Assembly (NCBI RefSeq): GCF_003640665.1
Contig: NZ_QQXL01000005.1
Span: forward strand, 62,001 to 126,000
Length of the DNA stretch: 64,000 bases
Source: Galactobacter caseinivorans
GTDB taxonomy: Bacteria > Actinomycetota > Actinomycetes > Actinomycetales > Micrococcaceae
Direction: 5' to 3'
Both the position numbers and the translations under genes were made by a program. Shown here one piece after another: positions 1 to 9,846 of this stretch. The notes beneath the pieces were generated by a model that saw only the letters and a list, made by a program, of their open reading frames with translations, made no database searches and was not told the DNA's origin. The stretch's first letter is position 1, and each line of letters begins with the position of its first letter.

Positions 1-1895
1 AGCCGCCCGTCGGGCAGCCGCCACAGCCCCACCACGGTGGTGTCCCCGGTGAGCTGGCCGGTCTGCGGGTCAAAGAGTTCAGGAGACGCGGTGCGCAGCA
101 GCGCCGTCTGCGTCGGCAGGAGCGAGGTCGGGACAAAATACTCCCGGCCGGAGCGCGACGAGGCTCCGCCGGCCTCGGGACCGTCCTTGCCGCTGTCCGC
201 GACGGCCCGTTTCACCAGCTCCGGCGCCGGGTCCACACGGATCACCAGGTGCTGCGGCCGCGGGAAGCGGGCCTCGTCCAGCACCCTGAGTACGTCGTCC
301 TGGTCCAGCGGCAGGCCATCGCCTTGGATGCTCACGCGCTCCACACGCTGATCGCCGGCGGATTCCGGGGGTTCCGCCCCGTAGCCCACCAGGATGGCCG
401 GGATCACCGCCACTGCGCCCACCGCGGCCGCCACGAGCGACTGCAGCGACCAGCGCACCACGCGCTCGCCGCGCAGCGGCTTGGCGGGACGCGACGCGGC
501 GGATCGGGAAACGGCACTGCCCCTGCCCGACGCCGCGGGGTTGCCTCTGCGCGACGCCGCGGGGTTGCCTCTGCGCGACGGCGCGGGGTTGCCTTTGCGC
601 GACGGCGCGGGGTTGCCAGTGCCCGACGCTGCCGGGGTCGCCGCAGCGGGCCCGTCGCCCAGGAGGCCGCGCGTCTGCGCGGCCAACCCTGCGGCGCTCG
701 CCAGGAGGCGACGCGCCGGATCGTCGGTGGAGGTGCCGTCCTTGGGACGATCCGCGGAGCCGCTCGTGGAGCCGCCCGTGGGGCCGCTCGTGGAAATACC
801 CTCGGTACCCAGCTGATCCCGCAATGTCTTGAGTCGCTGACGCAGCGGCTCGATGGCCAGCTCCACCTTGCGGACCGTGGCCGCAGGAAGGGCGGGTTGC
901 TGTTCGCTCACCCGCTGACTGCCGGCCCGCTGATTGCCCGCTCGCTGATTGCCCGCCCGGACCTCGGTGGCCCACGACTCCACGGCGGTTCCGGCCCTGC
1001 GCAGCCGCTTGAGGTCGGCGCCCAACCGATCTTGGTCCATTCCGGGGATGCCGCGGGGCAGGCGCTCCCACCGAAAACACAGCTCCTCCAGCAGTGGCGC
1101 CAGGTCTGTGGCTGGGTCCTGCGCCACCTGACCCTTCTGCTCCGTGGACCGCGCGCCGACGGCACCCGAGGAGCCAGGTGACAGCGTGCTGTCAATGCGG
1201 GCTGTGACACCCGAGCCATTGCGCCTCAGACTCCCTGGCATGCGCCGTGAACTCCCAGACATGCGGCGCGGCCAGCCCATCAACAGGCTGGTTCCGCCCG
1301 CGCTGCCAAGGCCCACTGCCACCAGCAGCCAGCCGCCGGGCTCCTGCCAGGCCCTGCCCGGTTGGCCCTCCGCTAGCGCGCGAGCCACCTGCACCACGGC
1401 GGTGGGTCCGTTCCCCGTGTCCAGATTCTGACTGAGCACCCGGTCCAGCTCGCGGGAAAGTTCGCTGACGGAAGGGGCCCGTCCGTCGGTATCTTGCAGT
1501 GCGGAGACGGCGTTGCCGCGGCTGGGCGCGGAAGAACTCAGGGCCCCGATCCTGTCCGTGGGCGCATCCAGGGTGACGAAAGCGTCCGCGCTGATGGGGA
1601 CGCGTCCATAGCGTTGGGCGTCCGGCATGGGGCCGCGGGCCACCCGGATCTCCAGCGGCTCGCGTGAGCGCACCGGACTCTTGGCCATCGCCGCTTCCAC
1701 ACTGGCCTGGGTCACGCCGTACGGCAGCCCCTGTTCCACCTGAAAGCGCACCTCTTGTTGGGGTGCGGCGTTCTGGGCCAGCCCCACACCGAGCGAGCCC
1801 AGGGCGGCAGCCGCCAGAGTCCAGCCCGTGACCAGGGCAAGGCGGGAGTTTCTGGGGGAGAGGGGAGGTGGCTTGGGCTTGCTGCTATAGCTCAT
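1..1895 (-). CDS. Large two-module membrane protein, first of three paralogues (3' end outside window)
   Basis: Not assigned to a family. About 631 residues are visible; the C-terminus runs off the left edge. A membrane segment at about residues 19-39 precedes an exported domain containing 'EQGLPYGVTQ', which matches 'ESALPLGLTQ' and 'EPGLPDELTQ' in the two upstream genes. A second membrane segment, a low-complexity cytoplasmic stretch with SRRGNPA and AGNQR repeats, a third membrane segment and a second exported domain follow. This is the same two-module plan as the neighbours. ATG 1895 overlaps the upstream stop (ATGA) and has AGGGAGG about 8 nt before it, so the start is well supported. 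Family and function are unknown; a DUF5129-like relationship is only a suspicion. Confidence 0.8.
   Translation of the reverse strand, partial: MSYSSKPKPPPLSPRNSRLALVTGWTLAAAALGSLGVGLAQNAAPQQEVRFQVEQGLPYGVTQASVEAAMAKSPVRSREPLEIRVARGPMPDAQRYGRVPISADAFVTLDAPTDRIGALSSSAPSRGNAVSALQDTDGRAPSVSELSRELDRVLSQNLDTGNGPTAVVQVARALAEGQPGRAWQEPGGWLLVAVGLGSAGGTSLLMGWPRRMSGSSRRMPGSLRRNGSGVTARIDSTLSPGSSGAVGARSTEQKGQVAQDPATDLAPLLEELCFRWERLPRGIPGMDQDRLGADLKRLRRAGTAVESWATEVRAGNQRAGNQRAGSQRVSEQQPALPAATVRKVELAIEPLRQRLKTLRDQLGTEGISTSGPTGGSTSGSADRPKDGTSTDDPARRLLASAAGLAAQTRGLLGDGPAAATPAASGTGNPAPSRKGNPAPSRRGNPAASRRGNPAASGRGSAVSRSAASRPAKPLRGERVVRWSLQSLVAAAVGAVAVIPAILVGYGAEPPESAGDQRVERVSIQGDGLPLDQDDVLRVLDEARFPRPQHLVIRVDPAPELVKRAVADSGKDGPEAGGASSRSGREYFVPTSLLPTQTALLRTASPELFDPQTGQLTGDTTVVGLWRLPDGR
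524..632. repeat. 24-bp tandem repeat, about 4.5 copies
   Basis: Units begin at 524, 548, 572, 596 and 620 and differ by a few bases (tgcccgacgccgcgggg changing to tgcgcgacggcgcgggg). On the minus strand they encode in-frame SRRGNPA(A/P) repeats in the cytoplasmic linker of the partial membrane protein. The first unit contains the dispersed motif TGCCCGACGCCG. Length change by slippage would keep the frame. Confidence 0.85.
913..957. repeat. 15-bp tandem repeat, 3 copies
   Basis: Three consecutive 15-bp units (913-927, 928-942, 943-957), each close to cgctgattgcccgct, encode RAGNQ/RAGSQ repeats in the same membrane protein as the 24-bp array. In frame, probably a flexible linker. Confidence 0.75.
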
Positions 1896-4681
1896 GCGCC
1901 GGCCTCCCTTCGCGCGGCGGTGTCAGCGGTGTCGTCGGTATCGGCGTCGGATTCCCCGTCGGACTGCCCGTCGGACTCCCCGTCGGTTTCCCCACCCGCG
2001 CTCCCGACCTGACCCGGCCCCGCGCCGTCGCTATCCAGGGCACGCAGGGCCCGCGCGGCGTCGGCCGCCACTGCAGAGTCCTGCTCAGAGAGCGCCGCGA
2101 CCAAGGCATCCAGGGCCTCCAACTGCTCCAGCGTGGCGGGGCTACGCCGCTGCACGGCGCCAAGCGAGTCAAGCTCATCCCAGCGCCGCCAGGCCTCGTT
2201 CAGCCGCGCCGCGTAGAGGCGCTGTTCCTGCTCCGCCGCGGCCCCGCGATCCTGGCCAAGGACGGCCACGGATTCCAGCGTGTTCTGATCCTGGCGCAGG
2301 TTCAGCGCGGTGAGGCGGCGCCGAATGCGCGTGAACAGCGTGCCAGTGGGGGAGAAGGAGCGTACGGTCGCGCGCACCAGCACACCCACGCCCAGGAGCG
2401 CGGTGGTGGCGAGCGCGGCACCGGCCATGAGCAGCGCCGCGACGGGCAGGCGCTCCGTGGTCCGCGCCTGGCCGTACAGCCCGCGCGCTCCCTGCTCGCC
2501 CGTGACCAGCAGCGTGACGTCCCTGGCGATGTCCCGCAACTGGCCATCCAGCGCGCGGTTCAGCGAGGTGGGGCCGTCGATGGCGCGGGCATCCCGGGAG
2601 AGGGGCGAGTCAGAGGTGGCCCCCGCGCTGACGGGGGACTGCGTCTGCCACCCCAGGTCCTTGCTCTGCACCGTGCCCAGGCCCACCGCCAGGATCACGC
2701 CTCCGGTGCCGTCGCCCCAACTGGTGGTTCCTGGGCCGGTGGGCTGCGGGCTGCCATCCGGCGGGCCGTCCACCAAGATCACGGCCGCCCCCGGGCGAAG
2801 GTCCCCGGTGGCCGGGTCCTGCAACGCTGGCCGGGCCTCGATCGCGGAGCGCAGCAGAGCCAGACGCTCCGCCTTTGGCATGGCCGGCGGCACGGTCTGC
2901 GCGCCCTTGGACAGGTCAAAACGATCCCGGGCCATGTAGGGGCTAGAGACGCCCACCACGGCGATGTTCAGCCCCGTGGGAGCGGAGATGGAGTTGGCGG
3001 AGGCCCGGATTCCGTCCGCGTTCAGGCCGTGATTCACGCCGTCCACGGTCAGCGACTCCACCCTGCCGCTGCCCGAGCCCTGCACCTGCCCGCCGCCCTC
3101 CGGAATCACGATCCCGGAGGCCACCCACGCCAGCGTGCCGATCACCACGGACCCGGCCGCCACGCCGGTGACCACCCAGGCGGGGCGCTCCCAGAAGCGC
3201 TCCACGTCCTGCGCCGGGCTGGGCGCCCGGTCCTGTGCGGCGGGAAGGGGCGGCTGATGGCCGGCGTAGGCGGCCAGCGCGGCGCGGGCCTGGCGCAGGG
3301 CCGGTGCGGGGCCCGACGCCGGTAGGCCAAGATCCGCGCGCAGCGGCGCCACCGCTGCGCCCGCGGAGGGGGACGCCTCTGGTGCCGGGGTCAGTGCGCT
3401 GAGGGATTCGGTGAGTTCCTGCGCGGCGGCCGTGGTCTGCGCCTCCAGCTCCGCCAGGCGGCGCACCGCGCCCTGGCCCTGCAGGCGCTGGTTCTCTACG
3501 TCGTTGCCCAGGGCCAACACGCCGTCGCGCAGTTCCTCCAGGCGCGCCGCCGCGGGAAGCAAGCGCAGCACCGGGGCGCCGGATTCCAGCTCGCGGGTGA
3601 GCGCCTGGGACTCCAGAACGGTGGGAGCGATGACCCGATCCCAGGCGCTGATGCCGCCCGTGCGCTCCCCCAAATAGGAGGAGGTGAGGCGCAGGCGCTC
3701 GGCGTCCGCGTACACGGCGCGCGCGTCCGCCACATAGACCCTCCTGGCGGAGCGGGCCGCAGGGCTGGCCGCCGCGGAGGGCGTCTTGTGCAGGCCCGCG
3801 AGCCGCTCGTCCCACTCCAACAGGCCAAGCGCCCGTCGCTCCAAGTCCGCCCAGCGCTGCTGCTGCGCCTCGGCGGCGGAGGTGGACAGGGTCAGGGCAT
3901 CCACGGCCAGGGCGTCCAGGTCCACGACCACGGAGGCCACCTGCCGCTGGCCGGCCCTGACCTCGTTCTGGCGCCGGCGCCAATCCCGACGGCGCACCAC
4001 GTGCCAGGCCAAGAGCGCGACGGTGGCCACGGAACCGCCCGCGACGCCGAGGGTGAGGGCCAGCGGGGGCTCCGAGTCCTCCGCGGATTCCTTGAGGCGC
4101 GCATCCTGCCAGGTCTGGACCGCGCCGGAGACCGCGGTGGCGAGATTGCCGGTCTGGAGATTGTTGCTGAGGGCGCTGACGGAGACCTCGCGTGCGGCCC
4201 GGTCCGCCGCCGGATCCGCGCCCGGGTTGAAGGGCGAGGACGGTGAGCCGGGCGCGGCGGTGGGCGGCCGCACATCGCCGGCCCGGTATTGCTCCGTCCA
4301 CGGCTGGCCAAGACCTACCAGGAAGTCACCCGGATGCGCGTCCTGCGCGGCCTGCGGAATGGTGCCCGGATACACCCGGACGGTGAGCGGGGCCTGCGTG
4401 CGCACGTCCTTCAACGCGGCATTGAGGCGGTCCTGCGTTAGGCCGAGGGGCAGTGCGGATTCGGCGGTGACAGTGACGGGCTGGGACAGCTGGACCTGGG
4501 CCTGTTGGGCCTGTTGGGCCTGCGGGGCGAAGGCCGCGCCGCCCAGGGCCAATGCCAGGGTGGCGCCACCCGTGGCGATGGCCGCCCACGGGGCAACGAG
4601 GCGCCCGCGCAGGCCCCCGAGGCCGCGCAGGCCCCTGTGGCCGCGGACGCCAGCCGGCCGGCGGGGCGAAATCTGGCTCAT
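1892..4681 (-). CDS. Large two-module membrane protein, middle paralogue
   Basis: 929 residues; function not recognised. Predicted order: membrane segment 30-52, exported domain 53-205, membrane segment 206-229, helical cytoplasmic domain 230-500, membrane segment 501-526, exported domain 527-745, membrane segment 746-770, helical cytoplasmic tail. The two cytoplasmic parts resemble each other (both begin RR-rich, then a Q-rich helix with 'WDERLAGL' or 'WDELDSLG'), which suggests an internal duplication. A GTG at 4726 would add 15 residues, but ATG 4681 overlaps the upstream stop as ATGA and has AAGGGG upstream, so 4681 is preferred. It ends by ATGA overlap with the next gene. Exported domains joined to cytoplasmic helices could be a scaffold or sensor; this is inference. 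Confidence 0.8.
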   Translation of the reverse strand: MSQISPRRPAGVRGHRGLRGLGGLRGRLVAPWAAIATGGATLALALGGAAFAPQAQQAQQAQVQLSQPVTVTAESALPLGLTQDRLNAALKDVRTQAPLTVRVYPGTIPQAAQDAHPGDFLVGLGQPWTEQYRAGDVRPPTAAPGSPSSPFNPGADPAADRAAREVSVSALSNNLQTGNLATAVSGAVQTWQDARLKESAEDSEPPLALTLGVAGGSVATVALLAWHVVRRRDWRRRQNEVRAGQRQVASVVVDLDALAVDALTLSTSAAEAQQQRWADLERRALGLLEWDERLAGLHKTPSAAASPAARSARRVYVADARAVYADAERLRLTSSYLGERTGGISAWDRVIAPTVLESQALTRELESGAPVLRLLPAAARLEELRDGVLALGNDVENQRLQGQGAVRRLAELEAQTTAAAQELTESLSALTPAPEASPSAGAAVAPLRADLGLPASGPAPALRQARAALAAYAGHQPPLPAAQDRAPSPAQDVERFWERPAWVVTGVAAGSVVIGTLAWVASGIVIPEGGGQVQGSGSGRVESLTVDGVNHGLNADGIRASANSISAPTGLNIAVVGVSSPYMARDRFDLSKGAQTVPPAMPKAERLALLRSAIEARPALQDPATGDLRPGAAVILVDGPPDGSPQPTGPGTTSWGDGTGGVILAVGLGTVQSKDLGWQTQSPVSAGATSDSPLSRDARAIDGPTSLNRALDGQLRDIARDVTLLVTGEQGARGLYGQARTTERLPVAALLMAGAALATTALLGVGVLVRATVRSFSPTGTLFTRIRRRLTALNLRQDQNTLESVAVLGQDRGAAAEQEQRLYAARLNEAWRRWDELDSLGAVQRRSPATLEQLEALDALVAALSEQDSAVAADAARALRALDSDGAGPGQVGSAGGETDGESDGQSDGESDADTDDTADTAARREAGA

Positions 4682-6666
4682 GATCGGTACCCCTTGGGGC
4701 CGTTGCGCCGCGGCCGCAGGGCCCACGCCCAGCTCAGGATGGCAGCGGTGCCCAGCCCGCCCGCCACGCTCGCGATGGCCGTGGCAGCAGGTAGGCGCAC
4801 GGTGCTGGGGACGCGCAGCTCTTGCCAGCCGGCGTATGCCGCTCGGTCCATCGCCTTCACCAGCTCAGCCGGCGCGTCCTTGGCGGAGACCAGTTCAAGC
4901 TCTGGTGAGGTGGGCAGGAGCCGATCCCATGTGATGTTGGTGCCCGCGCTGGGGGTGGAGCTGCGGGTGCCGAGCAGCACGGAGTCGCCGTTGGCCAGGC
5001 GCGTGTGCACCACGGTGACCGTCCGTTCGGTCTGCGGATCGGGGGCTTGGTTCAGCCCCGGGGGAATCGCCGACGCGGTCCACGCCGGGGCCGCGTCCCT
5101 GCCCAACTCGGCGATGGCCGCGTCCACGACCCGCTGGCGCACGGAGGGGCTCAGGGAAACCAGGGAGGAGCTAGGGTCCTTGGCCCTGGCGGCGGTGAGT
5201 TCGGCGGGAGGGGCCACCGCCACCAGGCGAAGGTGCAGCCGCCCGGCCGTCCGCGCCTTGGCCAGCTCCGGCTGCATCCGGGTCCGGAGCTCTTCGGCGC
5301 CCGGCCCGCTGAGCTCCACGGAGAGTGGGGCAACGGACGGGGGCTGCGGGGGGAGGAAGGCGCGGAAGGTGGGGGTGGTTCCCCATACGGCGGCGGCCGC
5401 GGCAATGCCGCCGCACAGCGCCACGCGCCAGAGCACACCGCCCAGGCCGCGGCTGAGCCGGGCGCCAGCGGAGGTGGCGCGCAGCTGCTGCGTCCGGGTG
5501 GAGGGTTTCACGGCGGAATCCGTGGTCGATTCCGCGGCGGACCCCTCCAGCGCGTCGAGTGAGGCGGCCAGGGCCACCGCCGCCGCGGTCAGCGGGGCGG
5601 TTCGGGGCAGGGGACGGTCAGCGGGGTGGAGCAGCTCGGAGTCATCGGCCGGCGACCCCTGCGCCAGCGCGGCGACGGTCCGCGCGAGGGAGTCGACGGC
5701 GCTGGGCGGCACGGGTAGCTCCCCTCCGGGAGAAGCCTGCGCCAGCTCGGCGAGATCCCGCGCACGCGCCGCCGTAGCGCCGAGATTCTCGCCGGTTCCC
5801 CCGCCTGCAGCTGCGCCGGTGCCCTCGAAGCCGGCCGTTCGCTCGCTGCCAGCCGTGCCCTCGAAGCCAGCCGTGTCGTGGCCGGACCTGGGCTCCGCGT
5901 CCCGCCGTGCAAGCACCTCCGCGGTCCGCAGCAACAGCCCCACCAACGCTGGGCGCAGCGCGTCAGGATCGTCCTCGGTGCTCAGGCGGGCCCGCTGCGC
6001 CACTGCGGTGAGCTCCGGCTGGGACGTGGGCACACGCCGTCGGGCACCGACTGCGATGCCCGCCAGCGCCACGGCCGCCAGGCCAAGGCCCCCGGCCGTG
6101 GTGAAGGACTGGACGGAGTGATCTTCCCGCCGCGCCGCCTCCGTGAAGGATTCCTGGAGGGCAAAGGTGAGCGCGGCGGGCCCCTGGCCTAGCTCGCGGT
6201 TGAGGGTGGCGGGGCGCTCGGCCCCGCTCCCCGCGCTCCGGACGGCGGCGCCCAGCCGAGTACTGGCCAGGATCTTCACGGGCTCCGAGGCATGGCGGCC
6301 CTGCCAAAAAACGTAGAAATCAGCGTCCGTGAACTCCCGCTGTTGCTGGTCCTCGCTTGGCTCACCGCCCTTGACCTTGATCCGCAGCGGCTCCGACGCC
6401 ATGACGGGAGAGACGGCCAGGATGCGCTCCACGTTCTGCTGCGTCAGCTCATCGGGGAGCCCGGGCTCCACCTCGATGCTGACAGCGGAGTCTAGCGCCG
6501 GGCCACGCTCCTGGAACGCGCCGACCCCACCAAACACGCCGGCTCCGGCGGCGCACAGAGCGGCCAACCCACCCCACAGCTGCCACGCGCGCGGGCGAGG
6601 CCGGGCTGGGGTGGCGGCTGGTTTCCGGGATTCCGGGGCCTCGGCGGAGGGCTCGGCGGGGCTCAC
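4678..6666 (-). CDS. Large two-module membrane protein, upstream paralogue
   Basis: 662 residues from GTG 6666, with GGAG lying inside the end of the upstream reductase gene; the GGAG-to-GTG spacing of about 13 nt is long, so the start is tentative. Membrane segments at about 30-50, 187-208, 411-430 and 632-654 enclose two exported domains, the same plan as the next two genes but with a shorter central part. The first exported domain contains 'VEPGLPDELTQQNVERIL', aligning with the N-terminal domains of both paralogues. The cytoplasmic linker has near-repeats of AGFEGT/AGSERT. It sits 7 nt after the aldo/keto reductase stop and is coupled to the middle paralogue by ATGA. Role unknown. Confidence 0.75.
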   Translation of the reverse strand: MSPAEPSAEAPESRKPAATPARPRPRAWQLWGGLAALCAAGAGVFGGVGAFQERGPALDSAVSIEVEPGLPDELTQQNVERILAVSPVMASEPLRIKVKGGEPSEDQQQREFTDADFYVFWQGRHASEPVKILASTRLGAAVRSAGSGAERPATLNRELGQGPAALTFALQESFTEAARREDHSVQSFTTAGGLGLAAVALAGIAVGARRRVPTSQPELTAVAQRARLSTEDDPDALRPALVGLLLRTAEVLARRDAEPRSGHDTAGFEGTAGSERTAGFEGTGAAAGGGTGENLGATAARARDLAELAQASPGGELPVPPSAVDSLARTVAALAQGSPADDSELLHPADRPLPRTAPLTAAAVALAASLDALEGSAAESTTDSAVKPSTRTQQLRATSAGARLSRGLGGVLWRVALCGGIAAAAAVWGTTPTFRAFLPPQPPSVAPLSVELSGPGAEELRTRMQPELAKARTAGRLHLRLVAVAPPAELTAARAKDPSSSLVSLSPSVRQRVVDAAIAELGRDAAPAWTASAIPPGLNQAPDPQTERTVTVVHTRLANGDSVLLGTRSSTPSAGTNITWDRLLPTSPELELVSAKDAPAELVKAMDRAAYAGWQELRVPSTVRLPAATAIASVAGGLGTAAILSWAWALRPRRNGPKGYRS

Positions 6667-6673
6667 GGCCGGC

Positions 6674-7507
6674 TCAGAACTCCTCGTAAACCGCGGGGTC
6701 CTGGTTCTTCATGCGGCCGTCCGCGCGGCCGAGCGCCGTGATGGCCGCAACCTCTGCGTCCGTCAGGACCAGGTCCTGGGCGCGCAGATTCGCCAGCTGT
6801 CGCTGAGGGCTGGAGGACTTGGGGATGGGGAGTGAGCCCACCGCCACGTGCCAGGCCAGCACCGCCTCTGCCGGGGAGACGCCTAGCCGCTCGGCCGGCG
6901 CAGTCACCGCCGATTCCTCAAACAGGTCGCCGCCGCGCCGCAGCGGGGACCACGCCTGCGTGATGATGCCGCGCTCGCGGTGGTACGCCAGCGCCTCGGT
7001 CTGCGGGAAGTAGGGGTGCAGCTCAATCTGGTTGACCTCGGGGTATTCGCCCGTGGCCTCCTTGAGCGTCTCGAGGTGCTCGGGCAAAAAGTTGCACACG
7101 CCCACGTGGGAAATGAGCCCGTCCTGGCGGGCCTGCAGCAGCGCCTCAAACGCCTCAACGTAGAGCCCCTGCGCCGGGTTGGGCCAGTGAATCAGGTACA
7201 GATCAACGCTCGGAAGGCCCAGCCGGTAAAGGCTCTCCTCCACCGTGATCCGGGCGTCCTCGCGGCGCTGGTAGCGACCGGGCAGCTTGGACGTGACGAT
7301 GGCCCGGTTCCGCGGCAGCCCGCTGATGCGCAGCGCCTCGCCAACGGTGCCCTCGTTCTCATAGTTATAGGCGGAATCCAGCAGGGCGTACCCCAGGTTC
7401 ATGCCCTCTGAAATGGCCACCGCCCCGTCCGCGCCCTTGAGCTTGTACGTGCCAAGCCCTATCGCCGGGAGTTGCAGGCCGCGGTGGGACACATGCGTCT
7501 TCGCCAT
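6674..7507 (-). CDS. Aldo/keto reductase family oxidoreductase
   Basis: 277 residues, normal for a soluble NADPH-dependent AKR that reduces aldehydes or ketones. The catalytic tetrad is visible as Asp44 and Tyr49 in LLDSAYNYE, Lys74 in TSKLPG and His107 in YLIHWPNP. C-terminal 'PIPKSSSPQRQ' matches the AKR cofactor-binding motif IPKS. The start ATG lies 3 nt after the upstream membrane-protein stop, and the next gene starts 7 nt downstream, so it is embedded in the membrane-protein operon. The link between a reductase and these membrane proteins is not explained by known families. Substrate unknown. Confidence 0.9.
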   Translation of the reverse strand: MAKTHVSHRGLQLPAIGLGTYKLKGADGAVAISEGMNLGYALLDSAYNYENEGTVGEALRISGLPRNRAIVTSKLPGRYQRREDARITVEESLYRLGLPSVDLYLIHWPNPAQGLYVEAFEALLQARQDGLISHVGVCNFLPEHLETLKEATGEYPEVNQIELHPYFPQTEALAYHRERGIITQAWSPLRRGGDLFEESAVTAPAERLGVSPAEAVLAWHVAVGSLPIPKSSSPQRQLANLRAQDLVLTDAEVAAITALGRADGRMKNQDPAVYEEF

Positions 7508-7510
7508 GGC

Positions 7511-8482
7511 TCAGCGCTCCCGCGGCGTCTGGTCCGGGAACTGGTCAAAGGGGGCATTGGGATCGCGATGCCCGACGCCGCTTGGTCGGGTCGGCGCGTC
7601 CGCGTTGCCCTGGGTGCCGGGAGCCTGGGTGCCGGGGGCCGGGGTGCCGGGGGCCGCGGTGCCGGGGGTGGTGCGCGGGGAGGTGCGGGGCGCGTTGGTG
7701 TGGGTCGTGTTGTTGTGGGCGGCGGAGGAATCTCGGGCGACGTCCGCGTCCGTGATGACAGCGGCGTCGTCCGTCGCCTCCGTGGCGGTCCGGTCCGCGG
7801 CGGTGCGGTCTGTGGAGGCGTCCGCGTGAGAGGCGGAACGGGTCGCATCGGTGACCGAGGCGTCGTCGGGCAGATCCTGTGAGGCAGGTGCGGAGGCGGC
7901 CAATCCGCCCAGGCTGCGCAGGAAGAGCGCGCCGGCGACCAGCAGGACCAGCACGCCAATCAGGCCAAACCACGGGAGCAACGGGCGTGCCGCGACCCAG
8001 CCGATCACGGGGAGCAGTAAGAAGACGGCGGTGAGGGCCAGGTAAACGGGGCGGCCGTACAGGGTCACCATCGGCAAGAACGCGGCGGCGAGGCCCAACA
8101 TGGAGGCCGCGAAGAACGCGCTGTCCTTGTCGCCTCCCAGCTCCTGGGTCTGGGCCAGGGCCATGGCGGCGAGGACGCCGATGAGCGGAATGGCGGAGAC
8201 CTGGAAGGAGAGGCCCTTGAGCGGATTGCTGCGCGGCAACATGGCCGGGCCGCCCGCCAGCTTCAGCACGAGCCAGGCCACCGGGCAGGCGGCGGCGGTG
8301 CCGATCAGGAGGGCAATCTGCCCGGCCAGCGGGGTGCCCCACGTGTATAGCGCGGCCGCGATGCCCCAGAACGCCGCGAGCGAGAGCAGCATCATGCTGC
8401 CGGAACGGTGCAGGCGATCGGCCTCCACCTGGGCCGCGGACATGGTCATGGATTGCCCTGCCGGGGTCGTGTCAGTGCTCAT
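7511..8482 (-). CDS. Multispanning membrane protein with PGT-repeat tail
   Basis: 323 residues, no family recognised. About six membrane segments occupy residues 29-190, followed by a hydrophilic, probably disordered cytoplasmic tail of about 130 residues that includes a TPGT/APGT/APGT run (about 7600-7665) and ends 'DQFPDQTPRER'. It is the first gene of the operon containing the reductase and the three large membrane proteins. A TAGCCT -10 element lies 6 nt before the ATG, which suggests a leaderless operon transcript. The tail contains a copy of the dispersed motif at 7569. A later in-frame Met (residue 12 or 14) is a possible alternative start. Confidence 0.75.
   Translation of the reverse strand: MSTDTTPAGQSMTMSAAQVEADRLHRSGSMMLLSLAAFWGIAAALYTWGTPLAGQIALLIGTAAACPVAWLVLKLAGGPAMLPRSNPLKGLSFQVSAIPLIGVLAAMALAQTQELGGDKDSAFFAASMLGLAAAFLPMVTLYGRPVYLALTAVFLLLPVIGWVAARPLLPWFGLIGVLVLLVAGALFLRSLGGLAASAPASQDLPDDASVTDATRSASHADASTDRTAADRTATEATDDAAVITDADVARDSSAAHNNTTHTNAPRTSPRTTPGTAAPGTPAPGTQAPGTQGNADAPTRPSGVGHRDPNAPFDQFPDQTPRER
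7569..7580 (+). repeat. Dispersed 12-bp motif TGCCCGACGNCG (representative copy)
   Basis: Copies read by eye on the plus strand: 524, 7569, 27240, 33534, 43945, 45587, 47351. On the minus strand (as CGNCGTCGGGCA): 6035, 11882, 18087, 21071, 40230, 47863, 57028, 61799. Copies lie in linkers, low-conservation tails and intergenic DNA. Several extend to ...GC(T/G)TGG. Function unknown. Confidence 0.75.
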
Positions 8483-9433: not shown

Positions 9434-9539
9434 GATGCTCCTGGCGAGTGTCCGGCGGGTGGTGAATATGACGCTACTCGGGAACCCGCCGTCGCGGTGG
9501 GGGCGTCGAGCTTGGGGGGCCTCCCGCCCGCACGCCCCC

Positions 9540-9760
9540 GCCGATCCCGCACCCTGGCCCCGCGCACCCCGTCGGCCCCGCGCACCCCGCTCGTCCTCGC
9601 CCCCGCCGACCCCGCACCCTGGCCCCGCACCCCGCACCCCGCACCCCGCACCCCGCTCGTCCTCGCCCCCGCCGACCCCGCGCCCTGACCCCGCACACCC
9701 CGCTCGTCCTCGCCCCGGCCGATCCCGCCGATCCCGCCGATCCCCCGCCCCTCGCCTGCT
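9540..9760. repeat. C-rich direct repeats (CACCCCGCTCGTCCTCGCCC)
   Basis: The segment caccccgctcgtcctcgccc followed by cgccgaccccg occurs three times with spacers made of 'accccgc' units; the last copy degenerates into tandem 'gatcccgcc'. Reading frames here are compositionally simple and judged spurious. Confidence 0.8.
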
Positions 9761-9799
9761 GTTGAACGGGATCTGCTCGTGTTCCGTCGATTTGCTCGT

Positions 9800-9846
9800 G
9801 TTTCGTGGATTTGCCCTGCCCATTGGACGGAGCAAATCCACGAAAC
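9800..9846. repeat. Perfect 15-bp inverted repeat, 17-nt loop
   Basis: Arms gtttcgtggatttgc (9800-9814) and gcaaatccacgaaac (9832-9846). Related direct fragments flank it: 'tgctcgtgttccgtcgattt' at about 9773 and 'gagcaaatccg' at about 9869. It has no U-tract, so it is not an evident terminator; it could be a dispersed element or a protein-binding site. Confidence 0.75.

Follow-up and report, generated by a model that had tools for sequence, protein, structure and literature searches.

Three adjacent minus-strand genes open a 64,000-nucleotide stretch of the genome of Galactobacter caseinivorans, a high-GC member of the Micrococcaceae (the window; G000:C15:62001-126000, from a genome of 2.95 Mb in 19 contigs). 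They encode membrane proteins that we call P3, P2 and P1 in their 5' to 3' order, and the surrounding row on that strand reads DUF7010 protein, aldo/keto reductase (AKR), P3, P2, P1, P0 and CDF cation transporter. A first-pass annotation, made by a model from the sequence alone, described three consecutive ATGA-coupled genes, and both junctions, P3/P2 and P2/P1, are indeed minus-strand ATGA overlaps. P1 runs 286 bases past the window edge. Sequence comparisons indicate that the three proteins are old, diverged paralogues of one membrane protein family. Its typical members have an N-terminal (N) and a C-terminal (C) module, each with an exported domain, a transmembrane segment (TM) and a cytoplasmic helical domain. 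The features of the three genes, all on the minus strand, are as follows.

4678..6666, minus strand: P3, a 662-residue membrane protein with an N-terminal TPM/DUF5129-like module (41.3 bits, domain E = 1.7e-14; hhalign probability 97.7%)
5992..6603, minus strand: P3 N module (residues 22-225), with TM1, exported domain and TM2 (profile and hhalign)
1892..4681, minus strand: P2, a 929-residue two-module protein (N module E = 7e-107, C module E = 3e-84, with profiles that include P2)
4067..4510, minus strand: P2 first exported domain (residues 58-205), with a TPM-like predicted fold (VIA-align)
3200..4063, minus strand: P2 TM2 with first cytoplasmic helical domain (residues 207-494); Pfam DUF5129 matches here
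2432..3160, minus strand: P2 TM3 and second exported domain (residues 508-750; C-module profile, model confidence low)
2024..2431, minus strand: P2 TM4 and second cytoplasmic helical domain (residues 751-886; DUF5129 profile 749-873, 11.3 bits)
1..1895, minus strand: P1, 726 residues, the last 95 of them below window position 1 (whole gene L006:9715-11895)
1263..1820, minus strand: P1 N module (residues 26-211; 90 bits, E = 2.9e-29; hhalign 99.1%)
1..437, minus strand: P1 second exported domain (residues 487-645, partly beyond the window; 44.7 bits, E = 1.8e-15; hhalign 97.4%)

Relatedness, topology and internal duplication

The N-terminal exported domains of P1, P2 and P3 are homologous. Those of P1 and P3 are 42% identical across 59 residues (blastp, E = 4.5e-7), and P2 is too diverged from both for blastp. 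A profile of the N module, built from 24 two-module sequences with P2 as a row and P1 and P3 left out, scores P1 at 90 bits and P3 at 41 bits, the best of 200 shuffles of each reaching 6.3 and 4.1; the P3 match is obtained with the HMMER composition-bias filter off, and the default run drops P3. Searched against the genome, a nine-row profile of the whole protein (A2, derived from the 12-row A1 by removing P1, P3 and a broken frame from locus L034) recovers two domains in P1 (E = 5.3e-27 and 1.1e-12) and the first domain of P3 (E = 1.0e-8). P2 matches this profile of its relatives over the full length (764.6 bits, model positions 7-844), a score that is not independent, as P2 is among the rows; independently of any profile containing it, P2 alone as query finds relatives in 10 other genomes. 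Both the blastp match and the profile scores set against shuffles bear out the claim of the first-pass annotation that the N-terminal exported domains are related, and the mutual similarity of the N modules is detected by profile and by hhalign.

The annotation also proposed that each protein contains a tandem duplication, which holds for P2, P1 and the wider family and is unconfirmed for P3. P2 has both the N and the C module, and P1 likewise fits the two-module family, both of its exported domains being detected and its last helical domain absent. The C module is detected in P2 and P1 (E = 1.8e-15 for P1). In P3, sequence comparison detects the first module only; a second one gets an hhalign probability of 0.6%, and the C-terminal half has a similar TM layout and undetectable sequence similarity. 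P1 and P3 both end without the final helical domain on the cytoplasmic side, and no helical profile matches the middle segment of either. Aligned with each other by hhalign, the N and C modules of the family reach 78.2% (E = 1.8e-5), or 86.5% (E = 5e-7) with slightly different limits; the argument for tandem duplication is mainly that both halves match DUF5129 as whole modules.

Two-module proteins have TMs near residues 20, 180, 490 and 690, and exactly four are predicted in 19 of 24 sequences. Averaged over those 19, the flanking charge is positive ahead of TM1 and TM3 and behind TM2 and TM4, and this bias places both exported domains outside the membrane. The plan drawn in the first-pass annotation, in which TM, exported domain, TM, helical region, TM, exported domain and TM follow one another, agrees with these counts and charges. 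P2 receives a fifth TM prediction (residues 248-266), which falls inside a predicted cytoplasmic helix. Separately, a 24-base tandem repeat of 5.2 copies at window positions 518-642 corresponds to GNPAxSRR repeats in the P1 linker.

Placement in the DUF5129/TPM superfamily

The annotation had found no known architecture that it could name and had proposed profile comparison with DUF5129 and TPM. That comparison, together with predicted folds, places the module in the DUF5129/TPM superfamily. By hhalign, DUF5129 matches the N module at 98.1% (E = 7.1e-14) and the C module at 96.5% (E = 7.1e-10), and a set of TPM proteins matches the DUF5129 set at 98.6% (E = 4.8e-16), so that the TPM link of the two-module family runs through DUF5129. 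Together with the N/C comparison these alignments are all in register over 261-292 columns, and DUF5129 aligns with both modules in the order exported domain, TM, helical domain. Reversed-profile controls for the four whole-module comparisons reach at most 14.1% for TPM/DUF5129 and at most 0.4% for the others. On sequence grounds the module is identified as DUF5129, which is in turn a divergent form of the TPM-domain module and consists of exported TPM-like domain, TM and cytoplasmic helical bundle. The TPM proteins numbered 31 as gathered, 28 in the alignment used for the residue counts given below and 27 in the whole-module profile.

In Pfam, DUF5129 scores P2 at 25.1 bits in a protein scan and 28.1 bits in a genome search (gathering score 27.3) and gives no match in P1 and P3. 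Of eight two-module relatives that were scanned, four score above this threshold (best 45.1 bits, E = 9.7e-12). The Pfam TPM family (PF04536) matches none of P1-P3, and scans of P1 and P3 against Pfam, NCBIfam and PADLOC assigned no family. Among solved structures searched by sequence, a DUF5129 query ranks three unrelated chains above TPM structure 2kw7 (E = 0.015) and reaches 9i83_3 (Psb32) at E = 1.3; the two-module alignment gives one weak match, to PhoU (E = 0.098).

In P2 and in a relative from Arthrobacter rhombi, the first exported domain is predicted, with middling confidence, to have a Rossmann-like TPM fold. The AlphaFold2 model of the A. rhombi protein has a predicted local distance difference test score (pLDDT) of 75.2. 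VIA-align lists mainly helical rows, and the rows reported here are those confined to the first domain. That of P2 matches Cg2496 (2kpt; Z = 8.2, root mean square deviation (rmsd) 4.8, 122 of 148 residues aligned), the respiratory supercomplex chains 6hwh_O (Z = 7.4, rmsd 3.7, 102 of 142) and 8ovc_V (Z = 7.1, rmsd 3.6, 103 of 144), Psb32 (8c7i; Z = 6.4, rmsd 3.8, 112 aligned) and two heterocyclase rows (4v1u, Z = 6.1; 4v1t, Z = 5.9). That of the A. rhombi relative matches supercomplex chains 6adq_J (Z = 6.6, rmsd 3.6, 100 of 145) and 8hcr_J (Z = 5.8, rmsd 3.5, 97 of 143). These Z values carry weight because they agree with the profile result that leads from TPM through DUF5129 to the N module.

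Single-module DUF5129 proteins (PF17173, ~480-560 residues) have the same arrangement of signal/TM, exported TPM-like domain, TM and cytoplasmic helical region, and a canonical gene of this type, with a Gly/Ser tail, lies ~4 kb downstream of P1 (L006:4194-5837, E = 6.2e-104). Unlike these, P2 has two modules, the helical parts of P1 and P3 are eroded, and the Gly/Ser-rich C-terminal tail (of the SGSGSSSSF type) is absent from P1-P3. With the TPM proteins (PF04536; Cg2496, Psb32, TLP18.3, BA42) the predicted fold of the first exported domain is common, whereas the modules are duplicated and have no Pfam TPM match. The chains 6hwh_O, 8ovc_V, 6adq_J and 8hcr_J are among the closest solved structures to the first domain; we take them to be PRSAF1, and PRSAF1 to be Msmeg_4692, from entry titles and PMC8267372. 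PRSAF1 is a single small domain, unlike the two-module P2.

A further difference from both DUF5129 and TPM proteins concerns the Asp of the VxDxAGxL motif, which is invariant in 28 of 28 TPM and 19 of 19 DUF5129 sequences. At the aligned column it is present in 1 of 26 N modules and lost in the other 25, and the GTYxGED motif of DUF5129 is unmatched in the N module in the hhalign alignment. The loss of the Asp from N modules favours binding over catalysis, and we think that binding is the likelier activity, more firmly for the first exported domain than for the second.

The two-module family and its possible roles

A search of 99 relatives with P2 matched 11 genomes, its own included, all of one family. 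The nine-row profile matched 140 of 395 genomes of that family, which we presume to be Micrococcaceae, and 3 of 296 genomes sampled across the phylum, both figures counting the genome of P2 itself; the remaining two matches in the phylum span just 107 and 73 of 846 model positions, and many of the 140 represent single DUF5129 genes. Of the 395 Micrococcaceae genomes in the sample, 54, among them the window's own, have a match to both modules, counted by hand as a single match from model position ≤60 to ≥740 of 846; of the 295 others in the phylum-wide sample, 0 do. A few of the counted genes have an internal stop, and split copies (e.g. G239, G128, G365, G290, G334) lie outside the count. In G239 and G128 the N and C halves occupy separate adjacent frames, as a gene split or a broken copy. 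These genome searches scored few candidates per genome (2 in the family, 3 in the phylum and 4 in the search with P3), and paralogues may escape them. Two-module proteins are mostly 810-980 residues long, and the 24-row set was drawn from loci with clean full frames and does not sample all 54 genomes. Among the 14 loci that carry a name, 11 are titled Arthrobacter or Paeniglutamicibacter, two are Micrococcaceae metagenome assemblies and one is titled Sporosarcina; the name of the last looks wrong, as the record (NZ_JADHDY010000020.1, titled Sporosarcina beigongshangi; locus L081) carries a Micrococcaceae-type two-module gene.

Leaving aside weak partial matches, P1, P3 and the next gene, P0, were detected as such in no genome but the window's own. 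No convincing orthologue was found for P1 in four genomes of the genus (one with a weak partial match), for P3 in 295 genomes (seven matches including itself, the others at E = 5.9e-5 to 9.4e-4) or for P0 in 295 genomes (two matches including itself, the other at E = 2.3e-4).

Arrays of the DUF5129 module recur. At 15 of 30 loci the two-module gene is preceded by an upstream DUF5129-module gene, mostly one that overlaps it and that measures roughly 400-580 codons unless the locus edge truncates it (a count made by eye; the partner profile holds 13 sequences). The Arthrobacter version of this upstream partner (~480 residues) matches the DUF5129 module at 97.8% by hhalign, and neither of the two such proteins scanned hits a Pfam family at E 0.05. 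In the window the position of the partner is occupied by P3, and the partner profile does not match the P3 sequence. Two two-module genes are adjacent in G026. In another family of the order, six DUF5129 genes stand in a row in G849 (locus L163, G849:C1:190000-209000) and three in G860 (L164), an independent expansion of the module. In three genomes of the window's genus, the two-module gene has beside it a convergent gene of ~520 residues with two predicted TMs (L036:5964-7532, L149:7671-9251 and L150:1783-3354), the C-terminus of which resembles the helical domain of the C module (E = 6e-8, 2e-6 and 6e-8, respectively).

Wider neighbourhoods vary between branches of the two-module family, most of them having been read by eye only. 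In four genomes from three genera (G002, G003, G326 and G048; loci L036, L149, L160 and L161), a fumarase gene, identified by Pfam Lyase_1 and FumaraseC_C, lies upstream of the two-module gene and runs in its direction. A 2-oxoacid dehydrogenase acyltransferase gene is nearby in G052 and G006, the Paeniglutamicibacter group has LysR-type genes in the vicinity at four loci (L049, L051, L077, L078), and a regulator with a sugar-binding domain heads the gene row in L081. Fumarase, LysR-type and acyltransferase genes are all absent from beside the P1-P3 trio in the window's operon. Queried with the fumarase-linked two-module gene of G002/G003, the window's genome returned only the single DUF5129 gene (E = 5.6e-8); this search missed P2 and is thus too insensitive to exclude a diverged copy. 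In A. rhombi a GH25-family gene follows the two-module gene (L074:12671-13810), the lone hint of a cell-wall context.

So, what might P1-P3 do? Homology, module order and topology come from computation; loss of catalysis, a scaffold role and a joint complex we infer. We tentatively prefer the reading that P1-P3 are DUF5129-module paralogues whose exported domains serve as binding accessory, scaffold or assembly factors of envelope complexes. The family would have arisen by tandem duplication of the DUF5129 module inside one gene, giving the form seen in P2, P1 and their relatives, and by tandem duplication of whole genes. Each exported TPM-like domain would be held by a TM on either side, followed by a cytoplasmic helical bundle. 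The exported domains may bind on the outer face, where they would be accessory, scaffold or assembly factors of membrane protein complexes in the envelope, and the helical domains, kept in P2 and missing or eroded in P1 and P3, may act inside, with P2 as a core subunit.

TPM domains are found in bacteria, cyanobacteria and plants. PRSAF1 sits at the complex III/IV interface of the mycobacterial respiratory supercomplex (PMC7719681, PMC11189923), Msmeg_4692 of that supercomplex carries a TPM domain (PMC8267372), a link to photosystem II is described for TLP18.3 and Psb32 (PMC13089150), and a PSP survey reports genomic association of TPM with PspA and argues for a chaperone-like function (PMC11237479). 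PRSAF1, TLP18.3/Psb32 and the PspA association together suggest a role for exported TPM domains in membrane complexes, and distant relatives of the family elsewhere assist in assembling or stabilising such complexes. An assembly or scaffold role for P1-P3 may be inferred from the family by analogy, and our preferred reading of P1-P3 is that of lineage-specific, membrane-anchored and probably non-catalytic envelope accessory proteins of TPM type. The three may form a heteromeric envelope complex, as the first-pass annotation thought possible. That P1, P2 and P3 form a heteromer presenting up to six TPM-like domains outside the membrane, as a dedicated platform, specific to this lineage, on which an envelope complex (the respiratory supercomplex, for instance) is assembled or stabilised, is a long shot. 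DUF5130 is presumably the PRSAF1 family; a DUF5130-type search of 79 genomes of the order found 0, with the controls also silent and the search therefore uninformative. Corynebacterium glutamicum cg3192 (DUF5129) is listed from an envelope screen, where the insertion is non-coding and equidistant from glfT2 and cg3192 and so cannot be assigned (PMC7775120).

Several results weigh against the binding-factor reading and the placement on which it builds. The AlphaFold2 model of P2 is poor (pLDDT 56.7), with an unreliable second exported domain, Foldseek gave 0 of 71 PDB matches at E ≤ 0.001 for the A. rhombi model, and Z values of 6-8 are middling by the VIA tool's own note. With TMs stripped, the exported domains give 7.9% for DUF5129/N, 0.3% for TPM/N and 0.3% for N/C (64.3% for DUF5129 and the C exported domain); TPM and N domains with TM reach 29.5%, and the whole TPM set matches the whole N module at 73.3%, out of register and in the coiled part. 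Compared alone, the helical parts of the N and C modules give 3.3% and 25.8%. At the aligned column, 9 of 26 C modules have the Asp, and 20 of 26 have one a column before. The recurring neighbours of relatives are metabolic or regulatory, and none points to an envelope complex.

Some of these points feed other explanations. The weakness of the exported domains alone, and a P3 match that needs the bias filter off, would fit a resemblance due to membrane-protein composition with no homology at all. We give this hardly any credence, given the reversed-profile and shuffle controls, the several TPM fold matches and the Pfam DUF5129 scores over cut-off in half of the relatives scanned; the controls count against this idea in the case of P2 and of the P1 and P3 N modules, the C half of P3 excepted. 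The Asp counts of the C modules would suit enzymes, namely acid phosphatases or nucleotidases of TPM type that work outside the membrane and have a pair of active sites each, and phosphatase and ATPase/ADPase activities of TPM proteins are on record (titles cited in PMC13089150 and PMC9478572). We consider such enzymes improbable, as the invariant Asp survives in just one N module and GTYxGED is unmatched there.

The pairing of an outside and an inside domain in each module could also describe transmembrane sensors, the exported domains binding an envelope ligand and signalling via the cytoplasmic helical bundles, and the LysR-type genes of the Paeniglutamicibacter group and the sugar-binding-domain regulator of L081 fit that idea. 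However, P1 and P3 have no recognisable cytoplasmic helical domain, and no regulator type is common to different genera in the loci read, mostly by eye, which leaves sensing rather unlikely. A somewhat better case, still an unlikely one, can be made for P1 and P3 as decaying duplicates around one working gene, P2, with no multi-subunit machine: both are truncated, the P1 linker is repeat-rich, neither yielded a convincing orthologue, and split or broken-looking family copies exist in other genomes. Yet their frames are open and overlap P2 by ATGA, and P1 retains two recognisable exported domains. The GC content of third codon positions is 0.83 and 0.85 in the two genes (0.83-0.88 over P1-P3), and codon-position GC resembles that of neighbouring genes.

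P1-P3 are a real, lineage-specific paralogue set of a known superfamily, for which the proposed role is plausible; the superfamily that we find is known, but uncharacterised rather than of known function. The real job of TPM, as enzyme, chaperone or subunit, is disputed (PMC11237479). With the module duplicated, the Asp lost from 25 of 26 N modules and paralogues in one operon, the two-module family is a natural test of that role: should P1-P3 prove important although no active site is conserved, TPM domains may originally have served for binding. An unnamed Micrococcaceae family is now joined to DUF5129, and DUF5129 to TPM.

Neighbouring genes and other features of the window

Two genes precede P3 on the same strand.

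6674..7507, minus strand: AKR, DkgA-like (PF00248, E = 3e-37)
7511..8482, minus strand: DUF7010 protein with six predicted TMs (PF22765, E = 2.2e-14)

The first-pass annotation had these two, as a reductase and another membrane protein, heading the operon. They are co-directional and tightly spaced, with the AKR stop 7 bases before P3 and the DUF7010 gene 3 bases upstream of AKR; the arrangement was not seen at the relatives' loci read, where conserved synteny had been suggested as a check. We regard the DUF7010 protein as a co-directional neighbour that is no supported partner of P1-P3, and AKR as probably a co-directional neighbour outside the system. AKR belongs to a very common enzyme family; its best NCBIfam model is DkgA, at 212 bits against a cut-off of 425. 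A co-directional AKR gene occurs near two-module genes in one other context (L037, L081), with two genes between. As a conserved partner it was rejected, the AKR of L037 being only 40% identical and both proteins falling below the DkgA cut-off.

On the other side of the trio, P0 starts 5 bases after P1 and encodes 335 residues with two predicted TMs and a Gly/Asp-rich tail; it has no detectable relation to the module profiles. The CDF cation transporter gene lies 45 bases beyond it. A promoter scan found none, and terminators are no more frequent than chance; Rfam and tRNA scans across the window gave zero matches, as did a search of plasmid records with P2. The true start of a mycothiol maleylpyruvate isomerase-family frame is uncertain, as dense GC-rich tandem repeats (window positions 9533-9814) fall in its 5' part.

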